Source of the DNA: Acidimicrobiales bacterium
GTDB lineage: Bacteria; Actinomycetota; Acidimicrobiia; Acidimicrobiales; SZUA-35
Reading direction: 5' to 3'
Length of the DNA stretch: 37,825 nucleotides
Assembly: GCA_024638805.1 (NCBI GenBank)
Contig: JAHEJO010000005.1
Location: forward strand, 1 to 37,825
Part shown: positions 1 through 7,071 of the stretch, one piece after another
Layout of the letters: each line of letters opens with the position of its first letter
Position numbering within the stretch: position 1 is the stretch's first letter
Notes under the pieces: generated by a model
The model's input: the letters and a program-made list of their open reading frames with translations, nothing else
Told to the model about the DNA's origin: nothing
Databases searched by the model: none
Made by a program: the position numbers and the translations under genes

Positions 1-878
1 TCCAGGAGGACCGGATCGAGGTGGGCCATGTCGCACTCGTAGTCGACGAGAGCAACAGCGATCTCCTCTTCCTGGAGGCCGGCCAGTGCGTCGGCGCGAG
101 CTCCGGTGAGATCCTCGAGATCGTCGCCGTCGAGCAGTTCGTCGAGGCGGTCACCGTATTCCTCGATGATCTCGTCCTGATCCTCGTAGTCGTAGCCGGC
201 CTCACCCATGCAGTCGCTCCACGCCAGTTGGGCGGCATCAACCCTGCCGTCACGCTCGATGAGCAGATCCTTGGGGTTCACGAAGTCCGGGTCGAGCTGC
301 TCGCTGGTGAAGCTGGCTTCGATCGCCTGGAGGGTGCAGCCGCCCACGGGCTCGAAATCCTCCTCGTCGAACTGGAACGAAAAGGTGGCCTCGGGGTCTT
401 CACCGTAGAGCGTCCTGTCGTAAGCCACCTGGTCGACCTCGGACAGCGAGTCGTGGATGGCCAGGTTCCGTTCGCCGAGCTCGATCTGCTTGGCGAGGTT
501 GTCGAAGCGGGTGGTCTTGCCGTAGCCCCACTGGCTCTTGTACTCCTCGGCGGTCATGCCCTGCTCGCTGCGTATCGATTGCATGGCCAGTTCGACGGTG
601 TCGACCCCGGCCGGGATGTACTCGAAGCCGGCTGCGGCCATGCAACTGGCGATCTCGGCCTGTACCGACTCCACTGCGACGGTCCACTCCTCGTCGGTGA
701 GACCGAACTCACGGGTCCCGAAACCGAGTTCGGCAGCGATGTCCGATACGTCCGACCCCGTGGCGGTGACGGTCGTGCAGCCGCTCCCGCAGGCGGTGGT
801 ACCCAGGCCGATGGCGACGACCCGTAGAGCCGTTGGCGCCCATCGACCGAAACCGACCTTGCTCTTGTGTGCTGACAT
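1..878 (-). CDS. Secreted Cys-repeat lipoprotein, C-terminus cut by window edge
   Basis: The frame is open from an ATG at 878 to the left edge, giving about 292 residues without a stop. A strong Shine-Dalgarno GGAGGG lies 6 bases upstream of the ATG. The N-terminus has basic residues, a short hydrophobic stretch and a Cys at residue 30 (context TTAC), which fits a lipoprotein signal, although Thr at -3 is atypical. Two related motifs of the form C-M-x-x-A-G-[FY]-x-Y occur near residues 73 and 220 (SCMAAAGFEY and DCMGEAGYDYE), so the mature protein is probably an internal duplication. No enzyme motif is recognisable. It diverges from a MacA/MacB-like ABC operon and may be a surface partner of it; that is inference. 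Confidence 0.75.
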   Translation of the reverse strand, partial: MSAHKSKVGFGRWAPTALRVVAIGLGTTACGSGCTTVTATGSDVSDIAAELGFGTREFGLTDEEWTVAVESVQAEIASCMAAAGFEYIPAGVDTVELAMQSIRSEQGMTAEEYKSQWGYGKTTRFDNLAKQIELGERNLAIHDSLSEVDQVAYDRTLYGEDPEATFSFQFDEEDFEPVGGCTLQAIEASFTSEQLDPDFVNPKDLLIERDGRVDAAQLAWSDCMGEAGYDYEDQDEIIEEYGDRLDELLDGDDLEDLTGARADALAGLQEEEIAVALVDYECDMAHLDPVLL

Positions 879-899: not shown

Positions 900-913
900 C
901 CGCTGACCAGCGG
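900..913. repeat. Short palindrome with GCTGACC half-site
   Basis: CCGCTG-AC-CAGCGG is a 6-bp-arm dyad 22 bp upstream of the lipoprotein start. It contains GCTGACC, close to the GCTGACT heptamers further right. Its heptamer starts exactly 44 bp (four 11-bp turns) before the one at 946. Confidence 0.45.
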
Positions 914-945
914 ATTTCGCTTCACACCGTAACTACCACAGCTTG

Positions 946-1004
946 GCTGACTGCGAGCTGACTCGATCGGGAACTGCGAGGATCGCAGTCAGCTACCAGT
1001 CAGC
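946..1004. promoter_or_regulatory. Large inverted repeat made of tandem 11-bp-spaced heptamers
   Basis: GCTGACT occurs at 946-952 and 957-963. Its inverse AGTCAGC occurs at 987-993 and 998-1004. Each pair has an 11-bp period. The left arm (946-967) and right arm (982-1004) form a near-perfect inverted repeat around a 14-bp spacer. A nested dyad ACTGCGA-GGA-TCGCAGT lies at 973-989. The right pair ends 10 bp before a candidate -10 box (1015-1020) of the ABC operon. The spacing suits SARP or OmpR/PhoB-type activators. Confidence 0.7.
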
Positions 1005-1014
1005 TGTGACCTGC

Positions 1015-1020
1015 CAGACT
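1015..1020 (+). promoter_or_regulatory. Candidate -10 box for a leaderless export operon
   Basis: CAGACT ends 8 bases before the ATG at 1029, and there is no Shine-Dalgarno sequence. It keeps the A and final T of the TANNNT pattern seen at many genes here. The heptamer repeats lie where the -35 box would be. Confidence 0.4.
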
Positions 1021-1028
1021 TCGGGGCC

Positions 1029-2219
1029 ATGACGCGCCGCAAGACCGCCCTGATGTTCGTTGCTGCGGTGGTGCTTGCATCTGTTGGCGGCTGGATCCTG
1101 GGATCGAGGGTGACCTCGCCGGCGGAGATAGCGGCTCGGACCGCAGCCCCTCAACCTTCGCCGATCCTCGTGGCCAGCGAGACCCGCGTATTGTCCACGA
1201 ACGTGGTGACCAGAGGAACGGGTCGCTTCGGCGCACCTCGAGAAGTTGGGCTGGTCCGGAGCCTCCTCAAGGGCGAGACACAGGTTGTGACACAGCTCCC
1301 CGCCCTGGCGCAGCAGGCAGCCGAGGGCGACGTGCTGCTCACCGTGTCGGGGCGACCGGTCATCGTCCTCCAAGGCGACCAGCCGTCGTTTCGCGACCTG
1401 GGACCTGGCATGGCTGGCACCGACGTGGACCAGCTCGAAGCGGCCCTCGATCGGCTGGGGTACGAACCTGGCACGGTCGGTGAGGGATATGATCGTGACA
1501 CCGAACAGGCGGTCCGCGCACTGTACGCCGTCGCAGGGTTCGAACCCGCGCTGGCTTCCAGCAGACAGCTTTCAGAGGTCTTCTCGTCCGACACCGAGCT
1601 CTTCGCCGGTTCGATCCCGAGCGCTGGCGTCCTGGTCCCTGCCGACGAGATCTTCTTCTTGCCGGCACTGCCGGTACGGGTTGCCGATATCGCCATCGCC
1701 CTGGGCCAGGCGATCGACGGGCCGGCGCTCACCGTCACCGACGCCAACGTCTCCATCGACGGGTCGCTCCCGATCGAGCAGTCGGGGCTCGTGACCGCCG
1801 GGATGGCGGTGGTGATCGACGAGCCGGACCTCGGGATCGAGGCCGACGGGATCATCAGCCGAATCGCCGACGCCCCCGGCACCGACGGCGTCGACGGGTT
1901 TCATGTCTACTTCGAAGTCACGGTGGACAACGCCCCGCCAAACCTGGTGAACGCATCCGTACGACTCACCATCCCCGTCGAATCGACCTCCGACGAAGTT
2001 CTCGTGGTCCCCGTCACCGCGCTGACGCTGGCTCCCGACGGCTCATCACAGGTCCAGGTCGACCGCAACGGCTTCCTCGAGCCCGTCGAGGTCCGACCCG
2101 GTCTGTCGGCGCAGGGTCTCGTGGAGGTCGAGGCGATCGACGCCCGTCTGGAATCGGGGGATCTGGTCCTGATCGGCTTCGACAACGGTGGGACGGTGAC
2201 CGAGGAAGCCAATGGCTGA
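1029..2219 (+). CDS. Periplasmic adaptor (MacA/HlyD-like) with peptidoglycan-binding-like domain
   Basis: A 396-residue membrane-anchored adaptor of a tripartite-like ABC export or remodelling system. Residues 8-26 form an N-terminal membrane anchor. Residues about 122-172 look like a peptidoglycan_binding_1 domain (FRDLGPGMAGTDV then a helical LEAALDRLGY repeat). The rest is beta-rich, as in the barrel and membrane-proximal parts of HlyD/MacA proteins. The coiled-coil hairpin of Gram-negative MacA is absent, as expected without an outer membrane. The stop overlaps the start of the ATPase gene by 8 bases, indicating one operon with translational coupling. The substrate is unknown. Confidence 0.85.
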   Translation: MTRRKTALMFVAAVVLASVGGWILGSRVTSPAEIAARTAAPQPSPILVASETRVLSTNVVTRGTGRFGAPREVGLVRSLLKGETQVVTQLPALAQQAAEGDVLLTVSGRPVIVLQGDQPSFRDLGPGMAGTDVDQLEAALDRLGYEPGTVGEGYDRDTEQAVRALYAVAGFEPALASSRQLSEVFSSDTELFAGSIPSAGVLVPADEIFFLPALPVRVADIAIALGQAIDGPALTVTDANVSIDGSLPIEQSGLVTAGMAVVIDEPDLGIEADGIISRIADAPGTDGVDGFHVYFEVTVDNAPPNLVNASVRLTIPVESTSDEVLVVPVTALTLAPDGSSQVQVDRNGFLEPVEVRPGLSAQGLVEVEAIDARLESGDLVLIGFDNGGTVTEEANG

Positions 2220-3087
2220 GGTGGCCACCCTCGAGCTGGCATCGGTCAGCCGGCAGTACGGCGATGACGCGCCCATCCACGCCCTGAAGAACGTGGACCT
2301 CCGGGTCGAGCGAGGTGAATGGGTGGCCATCGAAGGTCCCTCGGGGTCGGGAAAGTCGACCCTTCTCAACATCTTGGGTTGTCTCGACCGGCCGACGAGC
2401 GGTTCATATTTGTTCAAGGGATTGGACGTTGGCGCCCTCGGTGATCGTGAGCGGGGCGGACTCCGTAGCCGTCACATCGCCTTCGTTTTCCAGTCGTTCC
2501 ATCTGCTCGCTCATCGCAGCGTCGTGGAGAACGTGATGCTGGCCGAGGTCTATCAGCGCGGTTCTCGGCGCGAGCGCCGGGCCAGGGCCGAGGCGATCCT
2601 CGATCGCGTCGGTCTGTCACACCGCTTCGATTATCTCCCGTCCAAGCTCTCCGGCGGAGAACGCCAGCGGGTGGCCATCGCCCGGGCTCTCCTCGGGTCA
2701 CGGGATGTGCTGCTGTGCGACGAACCGACCGGCAACCTGGACACGGCGACAGGCCTCGCGATCATGGAGCTGTTGGCCGGCCTCCACGCCGAGGGCCTGA
2801 CCATCGTGATGATCACCCACAGTCCCGAGTTGGCGATGATCGCCTCCCGCCAAGTCCGCATCGTCGACGGCGAGCTCTCCGACGGGTCCTCCGCTCACGG
2901 GCTCTCGGACTACGCGCCCCTCGAGGCGTGGGTGCCCCTCGAGGCTGCCGACGGCGGTGCCGACGGGTGGCCGACCGATTCGTTGCGCCTGGTCGGTCCG
3001 TTGATCGAAGGAACCCGGGTTCGAGAGGGTCCCGCCCACGGTGCAGACGTTGAGTCCTCGACGGGCAGCGACGCAGGTGGGTCGTGA
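2212..3087 (+). CDS. ABC transporter ATP-binding protein, MacB/LolD type
   Basis: A 291-residue cytosolic ATPase that powers the FtsX-type permease encoded next. Walker A is GPSGSGKST (42-50), the Q-loop Gln is about 94, the signature is LSGGERQRVAIARAL (146-160), Walker B is VLLCDEPT (166-173), followed by the D-loop NLDTAT and switch His 203. The core resembles LolD/MacB proteins, which usually end near 225-235. The remaining 60 residues are a low-complexity, Gly/Asp-rich tail of unknown role. The ATG lies inside the end of the adaptor gene, and its stop overlaps the GTG of the permease (GTGA). Confidence 0.93.
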   Translation: MAEVATLELASVSRQYGDDAPIHALKNVDLRVERGEWVAIEGPSGSGKSTLLNILGCLDRPTSGSYLFKGLDVGALGDRERGGLRSRHIAFVFQSFHLLAHRSVVENVMLAEVYQRGSRRERRARAEAILDRVGLSHRFDYLPSKLSGGERQRVAIARALLGSRDVLLCDEPTGNLDTATGLAIMELLAGLHAEGLTIVMITHSPELAMIASRQVRIVDGELSDGSSAHGLSDYAPLEAWVPLEAADGGADGWPTDSLRLVGPLIEGTRVREGPAHGADVESSTGSDAGGS

Positions 3088-4337
3088 GCGAGCTGACCGA
3101 TTTCGATCCCGATCCGCTCCTGAGGGTGGACGCGTCGGAGATGTCCCCGGTCGATCTGGCCGACGAAGCCTCGGCCGGACTGTTCGCTCGTCCCGGCAGA
3201 ACTCTGCTCACCGTCCTCGGCACCGTCATCGGGCTGGCCGCACTCGTCGCCACCCTGGGGCTGTCGAGCACGGCCAGCAACCGGATCGTCGGCCGATTCG
3301 ACGAGCTTGCCGCAACCGAGATCGTGGTCAGCTCCCGGCCCACGCCGCGGGCCGGGGTGTCCAACGAGATCCCCTGGGATGCTGCCGAGCGACTCAGCCG
3401 GCTGAACGGGGTCGTTGCCGCCGGAACCCTCAGCCGGGTCGACGCCGGGAACGTGTTGATCTCGACCGCTCCGGTCAGTGATCCGACCCGTCGGACCGAT
3501 TTCGATCTGTCGGTCCAGGCGGTCTCGCCGTCGGCCTTCCCCGCCGTTCGAGCCGAATTGAGCACCGGCCGGTTCTTCGACGAGGGATTCTCGAACCGGG
3601 CTGATCGGGTGGCGGTGCTGGGGACCAGTGCCGCGGAACGGTTGAGCGTCGTCAATCTGTCGACCCGCCCGGCGATCAGTATCGGGGACGAGGTGTTCAC
3701 GGTCATCGGTATCGTCTCCGATGTCGGGCGCCAGCATGACCTGGTCGGCTCGGTCATCATTCCCGAAGGCACGGCTCGGGAGCTCTACCACCTGAGGGCC
3801 CCCGAAATCGTTGTGGTGGAGACCGCCTTGGGGGCCAACGACCTGATCACCGCGCAGATCCCTCTGGCGCTCCGGCCCGACAACGACGTCGCGTTGAAGG
3901 TGGTTTCACCCCCCGATCAGCAGCGGGTCCGCGACGCCGTCGAATCCGACCTGAACCTGCTCTTCGTCGTCCTGGGGGGTGTGTCACTGCTGGTCGGTGC
4001 GATCGGTATCGCCAACGTCACCCTCGTTTCGGTCATGGAGCGGACCGGCGAGATCGGCTTGCGCCGCGCCCTCGGAGCCAGTCGGCTCCACATCGCCAGT
4101 CAGTTCTTGGTGGAGAGCAGCGCCATCGGTTTCGTAGGCGGGATCATCGGTGCCAGTGTCGGTGTGCTGATCGTGGTCTCGGTCGCCGCCTACCAGTCGT
4201 GGACACCGGTTCTCGATCTGTGGTTGGCCGTCGCCGCTCCGCTGGCCGGTGCCCTGATCGGGCTCCTCGCCGGCACCTACCCGGCGTCACGGGCGGCCGC
4301 GTTGGAACCGGTGGAGGCCCTGCGCTCGTCGACCTGA
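3084..4337 (+). CDS. ABC transporter permease, MacB/FtsX family
   Basis: A 417-residue permease with the MacB layout. It has one N-terminal membrane helix (about 40-62), a large extracytoplasmic MacB_PCD-type domain (about 65-280), and three C-terminal helices (about 288-312, 345-370, 382-405) forming the FtsX domain. The loop ERTGEIGLRRALGASR is the hallmark coupling segment of this family. The GTG start overlaps the ATPase stop by 4 bases. Together with the adaptor it forms a complete adaptor-ATPase-permease export or mechanotransmission module. It is convergent with the lipoprotein gene ending at 4353. Confidence 0.92.
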   Translation: MSELTDFDPDPLLRVDASEMSPVDLADEASAGLFARPGRTLLTVLGTVIGLAALVATLGLSSTASNRIVGRFDELAATEIVVSSRPTPRAGVSNEIPWDAAERLSRLNGVVAAGTLSRVDAGNVLISTAPVSDPTRRTDFDLSVQAVSPSAFPAVRAELSTGRFFDEGFSNRADRVAVLGTSAAERLSVVNLSTRPAISIGDEVFTVIGIVSDVGRQHDLVGSVIIPEGTARELYHLRAPEIVVVETALGANDLITAQIPLALRPDNDVALKVVSPPDQQRVRDAVESDLNLLFVVLGGVSLLVGAIGIANVTLVSVMERTGEIGLRRALGASRLHIASQFLVESSAIGFVGGIIGASVGVLIVVSVAAYQSWTPVLDLWLAVAAPLAGALIGLLAGTYPASRAAALEPVEALRSST

Positions 4338-4352: not shown

Positions 4353-5348
4353 TCAGCTCAGGGGTTGTGTCGTGCCATACACGTCGGGGCTGAACTCGTA
4401 GGCGCGCGCTTCCATGGCCAGCGCGAGGGCGCGGTACTCCTCGAGCTCGGCGGGGGAGATCGGTCCGAAGTCGACCACTTCCAACTGCTCCTGCGTTTCG
4501 TCGTCACCACGAAAGTCGACCTGCACGTTGCCCACTCCCCGGGCGTAGGACTTGAGCTGGAAGATGCCTTCCTCCTCCAGGCTCGACTCGGCGATGACCA
4601 ACACCTCGAAACAGTCGAGTTCGACGCAGGTCTCCTCACCTATCGCCTCGACACGCCCGAAGTCGGACCATTCGACCGCAGGGCCCCAACCTTGGAAGTA
4701 GGGGGGCAGGTCCAGGGCGGGGTCGGCGTACATTTTGATCCCCGCCCGTGCTTCCGCGGCACCGGGGATCCATGCGGGCGCTGCCACGAACTCGCCGTCC
4801 TCGTATTCCTCGGGGTACTCCCCGAAGAACCACACGTTGCCGTCGTTGTCTTGGGCGTAGAACGCCAGCTCGGCCTCGACGAGTTCATCGTCGCTGTAGT
4901 CCTCGATCCACGCGACGACGGTTTCCACGCCGTCGATCTCCTTTGTCAGATCGATCACGGTGAATTCGATCCGGTGGTCGAGTGTCTCGCCTTCCTCGAC
5001 GGTGATCCCGTCGAGGATCAGACGGTTGCCGGGGGTCAGTGGGAACCACTCGTTGTCGACGGTGGTCGGGTCGTCGAAGACCGCAGACTCGAAGTCCTCG
5101 TGCACCGGTTCGATCGATGCGGTCTCGCCGTCATCGCTCTCGCCGTTCTCGGGGGCCTCGGTGGTTTCGGTGGTCTCGGCGCCGACCGTGGTCGCGGTGG
5201 TTTCGCTGGTCTCGGCGCCGACCGTCGTGGCGGTCGTTTCGCTGGTGGTGGCGCTGTCGTCGGTGCTGCTCCCGCAGCCGGTCAGCATCCAGAGCGAACA
5301 GACGAGTGCCAACCCTGCCGCTCCTCGGCGTCGTCTAGTGGTAGCCAT
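4353..5348 (-). CDS. Secreted lipoprotein with Thr/Glu-rich linker
   Basis: A 331-residue predicted lipoprotein. It has an Arg-rich N-terminus, a hydrophobic core and the lipobox LTGC with Cys 25. A Ser/Thr/Glu-rich linker (about 26-75) contains a 12-residue tandem repeat. A folded acidic domain of about 250 residues follows, with many Trp/Tyr/Phe residues and a Cys pair (ETCVELDCFE). No family was identified. The ATG at 5348 has an AAGGAG Shine-Dalgarno with 7-base spacing; the frame stays open upstream to 6146, but that part overlaps the next gene and is not coding-like. It is convergent with the export operon, 15 bp away. Confidence 0.82.
   Translation of the reverse strand: MATTRRRRGAAGLALVCSLWMLTGCGSSTDDSATTSETTATTVGAETSETTATTVGAETTETTEAPENGESDDGETASIEPVHEDFESAVFDDPTTVDNEWFPLTPGNRLILDGITVEEGETLDHRIEFTVIDLTKEIDGVETVVAWIEDYSDDELVEAELAFYAQDNDGNVWFFGEYPEEYEDGEFVAAPAWIPGAAEARAGIKMYADPALDLPPYFQGWGPAVEWSDFGRVEAIGEETCVELDCFEVLVIAESSLEEEGIFQLKSYARGVGNVQVDFRGDDETQEQLEVVDFGPISPAELEEYRALALAMEARAYEFSPDVYGTTQPLS
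5172..5243. repeat. Two 36-bp tandem repeats inside lipoprotein linker
   Basis: Copies at 5172-5207 and 5208-5243 differ at a few third-position bases and encode two copies of a 12-residue Ser/Glu/Thr/Ala/Val/Gly linker unit (TATTVGAETSET-like). This is in-frame duplication of a flexible spacer. Confidence 0.8.
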
Positions 5349-5464
5349 GGGTGTGCTCCTTGGTGTTTTCTGCCTCAGTGCGATATGGACGATTCGTGCA
5401 ATCAAGGTCTTTCCACCTTCTTGGTTGTTGCGGTGCTGGGTAGGACCGTTTCGGGTGAGGTCGG

Positions 5465-6058
5465 TCAGTTGAGTCGGCGCATCATGAGCAGGGTCATGTC
5501 GGAACGTATGAGCTGTTCCCCCTCGTCGAAGAGGGCAGAAAGGTTCTCGTCGGCCAACATCTTGGTGTTGGCTGTCTGAAGGCTGTCGGCGTCGCGGTGA
5601 TAGGCGAGCCACACGAGGCCGCCCACCTCGCCGAAAACGGTCACTGCGAAGGTCACCGGTACGGCTATGCCGCGGGCCAGACTGGCCCGCAGGCGGAGCC
5701 CCCAGTCGATAGCCTGCCTCTGGTGGCCAGGCCGTGCATGGGCTCGCAACGTGGTGAGGTACGGTGCCGGTTCCGTTGGTGGTGTTCCGAGGAACACCTC
5801 GACAAGCGTCTCCAGGTGAGGATCGGTGAACGACATCGCCATCTGCTGCAGGGTCTCGAGGTACTCCTTGGCGGAGAACAGCCTGGCCTGGGCGTCGTCC
5901 ATCTCCCGGATCGAGCCGAAGCGACTGCTCCACACGACCGAGTTGCCGTCGAGCGAGTACGGGCTGGCCCAGACGGTCACGGGAACATGTGTGATCGTCT
6001 CGACGGTCTCGGCCAGGTCGATCGAGTTGCCAAGAGCCGAATCGATGTCGACATCCAC
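5465..6058 (-). CDS. Protein of unknown function, 5' end uncertain
   Basis: About 197 residues with no recognised family. It has well-spaced Trp/Tyr/Phe, a segment rich in small hydrophobics (GIAVPVTFAVTVFGEVGGL), and a C-terminus ending LLMMRRLN. It reads like a soluble alpha/beta protein. The start is ambiguous. GTG at 6058 has no good ribosome site, and GTG at 6163 also lacks one. A strong GGGGAGGG at about 6092-6099 sits just before ATC/ATT codons in the same frame, with no ATG/GTG/TTG at the right spacing. It lies between a lipoprotein and the SARP gene in the same orientation, so it may belong to that regulatory group. Confidence 0.6.
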   Translation of the reverse strand: MDVDIDSALGNSIDLAETVETITHVPVTVWASPYSLDGNSVVWSSRFGSIREMDDAQARLFSAKEYLETLQQMAMSFTDPHLETLVEVFLGTPPTEPAPYLTTLRAHARPGHQRQAIDWGLRLRASLARGIAVPVTFAVTVFGEVGGLVWLAYHRDADSLQTANTKMLADENLSALFDEGEQLIRSDMTLLMMRRLN

Positions 6059-6291
6059 GAACGTTCGCCGCGTGCTGTGTATGAAAATGATCCCTCCCCT
6101 GCTGTGATGCGTCCGACCTTTCAGATGAGGCGGTAGTACCGACCATGACTGCTCATCGCTCACTGCGCAAGGTCGTTTGGCCGTCGGTGACAGCGCTGTG
6201 TCGCCACCGCAACGCGGCCGCGACACGAACGCGTCGGCGGCGCGACGACGCTCCTTCGGTCCCCGACGTTAGCCGATCCAGCGACGTCGGG

Positions 6292-7071
6292 TCAGCTGAT
6301 GATCATCGGCTCCTGGGCCAGCACCCGACGTTCGGTCTCACGCAGCTCAGGACCGGGGTCCACGCCGATTTCCCGCTGCAGGATGCTCCGGGCCTCGGTG
6401 TAGGCGCGCAGTGCCTCGCTCTGGCGCCCCGATTGGTAGAGAGCGATCATCAGCAAGCACCAGCGTCGTTCGCGGAGGGGTTCCTCGGTGGTGAGTTGGT
6501 TCAGATAGGCGACCGCCGGCTTGGCCATACGGATCATCAACTCGGCTTGGTCTTCCTCGGTCCGGCGGCGCAACTCGGTCATTCGAGCGGCGGCCGCCTG
6601 CCCGACCCGGCTCGTCGTGAGGTCTTCCCACGGTTCGCCCGAGGACGACAGGGCCAAAGCCATCGAATAGCTCCCGCTGCCGAGCTCCAGTTCTCCGTCC
6701 GAGACAAGGTCTCTGCCTTCGTTCACGAATCGCACGAATCGATGGACGTCGACCTGCTCGACATCGGCCACGATGCGATATCCGCTGGCGGTCGTCTCGA
6801 GATCGATCGGCGCGATGCGGCGGCGGAGCCGCATGACCAGTGTGCGCAGCGCATGACCTGGGTCGCGAGGCTTTCCGTTGGGCCAGAGCGCATCGGAAAG
6901 CCGGTTCACCGGCTGGTGGTCGCCGGGGTGGAGCAGCAGGGCGGCCAGGAGCGATCGTTCCCTATGACCGCCGGCGGGCTGAGCAGCTCCTCCGGCCACG
7001 AGCGACGTGGGGCCGAAGCACCGAAAAGAGGGGTCCCGCTCTGGGTCGAACGGTGTGCTCTTCACCGACAA
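6292..7071 (-). CDS. SARP-family transcriptional regulator (AfsR/DnrI-like)
   Basis: A 259-residue regulator with the minimal SARP architecture. An OmpR-like winged-helix DNA-binding domain lies at about 15-110 (LLAALLLHPGDHQPVNRLSD, then LRRRIAP and SGYRI). A bacterial transcriptional activation domain (BTAD, TPR-like) lies at about 118-255, ending EIGVDPGPELRETERRVL. SARPs are actinobacterial activators that bind heptamer repeats with 11-bp period. The likely start is TTG at 7071, because a GGAGGG ribosome site lies 7 bases upstream; a GTG two codons later has poorer spacing. No ATPase or sensor domain is attached. It is 5 kb from a matching heptamer array upstream of the export operon. Confidence 0.88.
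   Translation of the reverse strand: MSVKSTPFDPERDPSFRCFGPTSLVAGGAAQPAGGHRERSLLAALLLHPGDHQPVNRLSDALWPNGKPRDPGHALRTLVMRLRRRIAPIDLETTASGYRIVADVEQVDVHRFVRFVNEGRDLVSDGELELGSGSYSMALALSSSGEPWEDLTTSRVGQAAAARMTELRRRTEEDQAELMIRMAKPAVAYLNQLTTEEPLRERRWCLLMIALYQSGRQSEALRAYTEARSILQREIGVDPGPELRETERRVLAQEPMIIS

Follow-up and report, generated by a model that had tools for sequence, protein, structure and literature searches.

A conserved back-to-back heptamer site before an ABC export operon in Acidimicrobiales, probably an operator for a two-component response regulator

Operators of the OmpR/PhoB family with 11-bp direct repeats are already well known, PhoB, PhoP and CopR being examples. The boxes of E. 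coli PhoB (CTGTCAT-N4-CTGTCAT), M. tuberculosis PhoP (TCACAGC-N4-TCACAGC) and S. coelicolor PhoP (GTTCACC-N4-GTTCACC) have been set out, and a PhoP-DNA structure displays a head-to-tail dimer with a strict 4-bp spacer (PMC4832192). CopR, an actinobacterial OmpR-type regulator, uses an 11-bp tandem repeat in a divergent promoter region to activate exporter-side genes and its own operon; in C. glutamicum the site, TGAAGATTTnnTGAAGATTT, lies between copR and cg3286 (PMC3353115). SARP-type regulators follow a similar geometry: their repeats are spaced at 11 or 22 bp, and 8 bp separate the 3' one from the -10 element (PMC10936776).

The stretch considered here (the window, 37,825 nucleotides of contig JAHEJO010000005.1 from an Acidimicrobiales bacterium) carries an export operon preceded by a double set of such repeats (Table 1). 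A sequence-only reading of the window had proposed that these repeats control the operon, and possibly the divergent lipoprotein gene, perhaps through the SARP encoded nearby; an OmpR/PhoB regulator was mentioned as an alternative. Comparison with related genomes supports the site and its placement, and points to a different regulator.

Conservation and promoter geometry of the double site

Both pairs picked out in that reading, GCTGACT at 946 and 957 and its inverse at 987 and 998, are where it placed them. Over 18 nt, complementarity between the arms (946-963 and 987-1004) amounts to 89%, and 946-956 pairs with 983-993 at 11 of 11 positions. Among 100,000 dinucleotide-shuffled versions of 885-1028, 12 contained any 7-mer pair accompanied by its inverse at an equal period of 8-14 bp. 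When one mismatch at most is tolerated, the assembly of the window genome (G000; 2.79 Mb, about 85% complete) has GCTGACT-N4-GCTGACT at one location, the window site, where it reads once on each strand; the regulon scan of this genome was confined to one pattern. An exact-pattern search that covered as many as 298 genomes from the order returned the known loci and four unrelated matches, and nothing else.

Table 1. Features of the window: the export operon, its neighbors and the putative control site
Feature	Position	Strand	Remarks
Divergent lipoprotein-like gene	3..878	-	runs off contig end
Fifth related heptamer, GCTGACC	902..908	+	44 bp upstream of 946; from sequence
Leftward -10 candidate, TAGTTA (weak)	930..935	-	10 bp from S1; predicted from sequence
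Double operator (putative): two facing direct heptamer pairs, 11-bp period	946..1004	.	23 bp between arms; from sequence and four orthologous loci
Half-site S1, GCTGACT	946..952	+	nearest the leftward (lipoprotein) promoter; aligned in G003, G035, G036, G325
Half-site S2, GCTGACT	957..963	+	11 bp from S1; CTGACT-NNN-AGCTGA invariant in four genomes
Half-site S3, + strand reads AGTCAGC	987..993	-	single half-site replaces the S3-S4 pair in G035/G036
Half-site S4, + strand reads AGTCAGC	998..1004	-	ends 24 bp before ATG
-10-like element, CAGACT	1015..1020	+	10 bp after S4, 8 bp before ATG; like geometry in orthologues and regulator promoters
Membrane-fusion/adaptor protein, first operon gene	1029..2219	+	peptidoglycan-binding domain (weak Pfam match)
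MacB/LolD-type ABC ATPase	2212..3087	+	
MacB/FtsX-type ABC permease	3084..4337	+	
SARP-type regulator	6292..7071	-	BTAD and winged helix; about 2 kb past operon

Full-length orthologues of the adaptor are found in a sister species of the same genus (G003, 73% identical), in two members of the same family (G035 and G036, 58-59%) and in Acidimicrobiales OFTM337 (also L058 and G325; 53%). The sequence-only reading would have been undone by absence of the repeat upstream of orthologous operons; all four of these close orthologues have the operator upstream. The sister species carries CCTGACT-N4-GCTGACT-N21-GGTCAGC-N4-GGTCAGG; G035 and G036 carry TCTGACT or CCTGACT, then N4-GCTGAAC and a single inverted half-site, with three good half-sites in each; and OFTM337 has a degenerate version, CCTGAAC-N4-CCTGACA-N13-GTTCAGC-N4-CGTCAGG. 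A TCAG/CTGA core is present in all good half-sites. The 11-bp period within an arm is constant, while the inter-arm distance varies among the species (23, 21, 24, 24 and 13 nt). The end of the last heptamer keeps close to the start codon, at 24 bp in the window and 22, 21, 21 and 21 bp in the orthologues. The fifth heptamer is present as described, and is probably incidental, since the G003 orthologue lacks a counterpart at that offset. The four main repeats are a real and conserved site before an export-pump operon, presumably a protein-bound switch.

In the orthologues a -10-like box lies 8-10 bp past the last half-site and 6-8 bp before the ATG; the matching geometry is seen in G003 (CAGACT), G035 (TACGAT) and G325, and in regulator promoters such as that of L058 (CACACT). 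The equal spacing backs the -10 candidate that had been proposed 10 bp beyond the last heptamer, and CAGACT would give the adaptor operon a near-leaderless promoter. No clear -35 hexamer was seen beneath the site. On the leftward side, G035 and G036 have better -10 matches than the window (TACAAT and TAGAAT, 9 bp from the outer half-site, S1); there the divergent gene encodes an ABC-2 ATPase. The divergent lipoprotein of the window has a 73% identical counterpart in the sister species and related genes in G035, G036 and G325.

Two further genes lie between the operon and the SARP gene. A convergent lipoprotein-like gene on the minus strand, from 4353 to about 5.4 kb, is about 80% identical in G003 and adjoins the orthologous cluster in G036; it has no Pfam match. 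An ORF of 253 aa on the same strand (5465-6226), between this gene and the SARP gene, likewise has no Pfam match.

The same code before response-regulator genes

The one-mismatch search also yielded a single match just before a response-regulator gene, in the sister species (G003:C7), and the protein-sequence relatives of this regulator supplied a set of 44 promoters, all but the first chosen by protein similarity and not by motif. The sense-strand pattern TCAG-N7-TCAG, with a period of exactly 11, is present in 26 of these 44 (shuffle mean 0.16, maximum 1), which are related to one another and so do not amount to 44 independent events. Periods of 8, 9, 12 and 13 gave none, and a period of 10 gave five. 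In 19 of the 26 motif-bearing promoters, the distance from the end of the last heptamer to the start codon is 21-24 bp, matching the adaptor operons; among control promoters of other OmpR-type regulators, one of 35 has the motif. Across five genomes, TCAG-11-TCAG placed 22-25 bp before RTG was matched 33 times, against 7 for the reversed pattern; the period-10 version, a control for spacing, gave 15 against 10.

The gene order in OFTM337 brings site and regulator together. Two lipoprotein genes on the minus strand are followed by the operator, the adaptor, ATPase and permease genes, a histidine kinase and a response regulator on the minus strand, and a divergent ABC-2 ATPase. The regulator has Pfam Response_reg (receiver) and Trans_reg_C domains and a partner kinase beside it, as expected of the OmpR/PhoB type. 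Its promoter holds a double inverted operator of its own, CCTGACA-N4-CCTGACT-N14-ATTCAGC-N4-GTTCAGG-N9-CACACT-N8-GTG, and the opposite arm is equally far from what may be the GTG start codon of the ABC-2 ATPase gene. As each arm here faces its own start at equal spacing, this promoter offers the clearest clue to the working of the window site. In the sister species an ABC-2 ATPase 54% identical to that of OFTM337 is encoded about 32 kb from the adaptor operon, on the same contig, and its gene carries GCTGACC-N4-CCTGACC followed directly by AGTCAGG-N4-AGTCAGG. The best reading is that elsewhere the regulon also takes in an ABC-2 exporter and the two-component genes.

Related layouts were noticed in other genomes. 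In six loci (L161, L162, L165, L166, L168 and L164, respectively G001:C140, G013:C20, G019:C142, G020:C185, G009:C114 and G025:C8) a related regulator gene is divergent to a lipoprotein and adaptor cluster, and the intergenic regions hold facing CTGAGA and TCTCAG repeats with 10-11 bp periods; the layout matches that of the window, with C in place of G or T before TCAG. Upstream of a subfamily regulator gene, L140 (G082:C3) repeats the unit GTTCAGC-CGAC four times in tandem, exactly every 11 bp. In L155 (G039:C164) the gene of a clade-mate regulator is preceded by GCTGAAC-N4-GCTGAAC / GTTCAGC-N4-GTTCAGG, an almost perfect double inverted operator; an adaptor homologue was sought in G039 and not found.

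A candidate mechanism, its regulator and the alternatives

The repeats, their conservation, the promoter geometry, the synteny of OFTM337 and the recurrence of the code in regulator promoters together argue that the site is, very probably, a divergent operator at which an OmpR/PhoB-family two-component response regulator would act as an activator, the likely regulator being the one found at G000:C51. Direct half-sites about one helical turn apart, as the 11-bp period gives in both arms, are what such regulators bind. On each arm, a pair of heptamers with core TCAG/CTGA, the phosphorylated regulator would sit as one tandem dimer, head to tail. Ending 10 bp upstream of the -10-like box, the right arm (987-1004) would occupy the place of a -35 element, and the dimer on it would recruit RNA polymerase to the adaptor-ATPase-permease operon at its near-leaderless promoter. 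The divergent lipoprotein gene, which the left arm (946-963) faces, would be served likewise at its own promoter.

Control by the window SARP, which would bind the heptamers and activate the operon, was a natural suggestion: the gene encodes BTAD and winged-helix domains and lies close past the operon, and both the 11-bp repeats and the distance to the -10 box (10 bp from the right arm, 8-10 bp in the orthologues) suit a SARP box. The geometry fits SARPs and PhoB-type regulators alike, however, and the decision therefore falls to co-occurrence, promoter content and synteny. The SARP homologue of the sister species (55% identical) is on another contig, unlinked to the operon. G035, G036 and G325 keep the site, yet have no close homologue: SARP matches there reach at most 38% over the domain and mostly lie inside large multi-domain proteins. 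Autoregulation is no strict requirement for a SARP, and the motif is found in none of 16 SARP promoters. SARP sites as described are direct repeats, which leaves the second, inverted arm unexplained, and the regulator adjoining the operon in OFTM337 is a response regulator. The window SARP is thus very unlikely to be the reader, and was rejected on co-occurrence, linkage and promoter controls. What survives of the earlier proposal is the 11-bp head-to-tail site for a winged-helix protein, its placement and its conservation; the link to the SARP falls, and the alternative mentioned beside it gains the comparative evidence of regulator promoters, OFTM337 linkage and start-codon spacing.

The sign of control is a separate matter, as position alone does not fix it, and repression by response regulators is on record, for CutR at certain promoters (PMC12802291). 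A repressor that blocks the promoters is nonetheless improbable: in about 20 promoters a constant gap of 8-10 bp separates the proximal heptamer from the -10 box, the placement from which SARP/AfsR are described as activating, and the missing -35 hexamer also speaks against it. As for structure in RNA, the two arms could pair if transcribed, but an attenuator or terminator hairpin, or a palindrome due to chance, is scarcely credible: both predicted transcript starts lie outside the arms, the inter-arm distance differs between species while the period inside the arm is kept, and the shuffles rarely reproduce such a structure. The hairpin was rejected on the placement of the predicted starts and the variable arm spacing.

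Within the preferred reading, an activating response regulator, it remains to name the protein that acts in the window genome. In a maximum-likelihood tree the operon-linked regulator of OFTM337 forms one clade with G000:C51, G003:C190 and G036:C152 (support 100/98). The G000:C51 regulator (contig C51, 6326-7003) is the best match in the window genome to that of OFTM337 (69.5%), and the kinase beside it (4968-6326) is likewise the best match to the OFTM337 kinase. The code stands in the promoter of the clade member itself in L058 and in G003:C190 (AGTCAGC-N4-GGTCAGC), and weakly in that of C51, where AGTCAGC-N4-GGTCCGA combines one good half-site with a poor second. In both G000 and G003 the regulator is unlinked to the adaptor operon. 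G035 has the operator, yet no clade member was found in its assembly (81% complete, 980 contigs), and several clade members sit in genomes in which no full-length adaptor orthologue was found. From this comparison the C51 regulator is the likely reader of the window site.

Another subfamily member, G000:C37, might instead read sites of this type, or share them with C51; this is a less probable account, though one to be taken seriously. The C37 promoter has TTGTCAG-N4-TGTTCAG, 21 bp from the start, and its 90% identical orthologue in the sister species is G003:C7, whose promoter alone, among those of regulators, turned up in the one-mismatch search of genomes. Against this, G001 and G002, two genomes that yielded no full-length adaptor orthologue, have C37 orthologues as well; the sites of C37 and G003:C7 consist mostly of TTCAG half-sites; a second site of the C37 type precedes a gene near the C37 system itself; and the operon-linked regulator of OFTM337 belongs to the C51 clade. 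The second TCAG-11 sites (G000:C37:5596-5636 and G003:C7:72094-72133) are conserved in both species with equal start-codon spacing; they precede a gene for a small exported-looking protein downstream of the two-component genes, probably a second regulon.

Implications and comparison with described systems

A wider perspective treats these promoters as a family-wide code of the Acidimicrobiia: an expanded regulator subfamily would read xTCAG-N7-TCAG at 21-24 bp from near-leaderless starts; back-to-back pairs would drive divergent promoters; MacB-type and ABC-2 exporters and lipoproteins would form one regulon; and the nucleotide preceding TCAG (G, T or C) would track the clade. The case for and against this generalization is about evenly balanced. 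The literature searched contained neither the TCAG code, the back-to-back layout or the exporter regulon in Acidimicrobiia, nor a described binding motif for that group, and nothing specific on divergent back-to-back response-regulator operators. The outcome is an operator code concrete enough to test, together with a candidate two-component regulon of Acidimicrobiia exporters; the fixed start-codon distance makes the code usable for regulon prediction in uncultured genomes. The nearest SARP, an inviting candidate, gives way to a two-component system encoded elsewhere in the genome, to which the site, the promoter geometry and the synteny of a relative all point.

Some described classes were set aside. 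The actinobacterial Pho box (GTTCACC-N4-GTTCACC) has a TCAC core, and the half-sites here have TCAG/CTGA; the CutR motif TAWATAAA (PMC12802291) and the C. glutamicum MprA motif TKTTAAGAAM do not match the site. The best models for the OFTM337 regulator and kinase are CztR/SilR/CopR and CztS/SilS/CopS, both below cut-off; for the regulator, TIGR01387, a model of this heavy-metal class, scores 227 bits against an NCBIfam cut-off of 279.2 bits.

Set beside MacAB-TolC and Lol-type exporters, the operon similarly combines an adaptor, a LolD/MacB-like ATPase and an FtsX/MacB-like permease; it differs in the peptidoglycan-binding domain of the adaptor, the separate ATPase and permease genes and the flanking lipoproteins. 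SARP boxes such as the afs box (PMC10936776) share with the window site the 11-bp direct repeats over the -35 region and a weak -10 that lies some 8 bp past the 3' repeat, but not the recognized sequence, the inverted second arm, the regulator family or a conserved SARP linkage. The CopR site is likewise an 11-bp tandem repeat in a divergent promoter region; its sequence is different, and it has one pair where the window has two inverted pairs. The PhoB and PhoP boxes, finally, are two 7-bp direct repeats with a 4-bp spacer, read by a head-to-tail dimer of the OmpR/PhoB family, as is proposed for each arm of the window site; the window departs from them in its TCAG core (GTCAGC, TTCAGC) in place of TCAC or GTCAT, in its two facing pairs and in the regulator subfamily that would read them.
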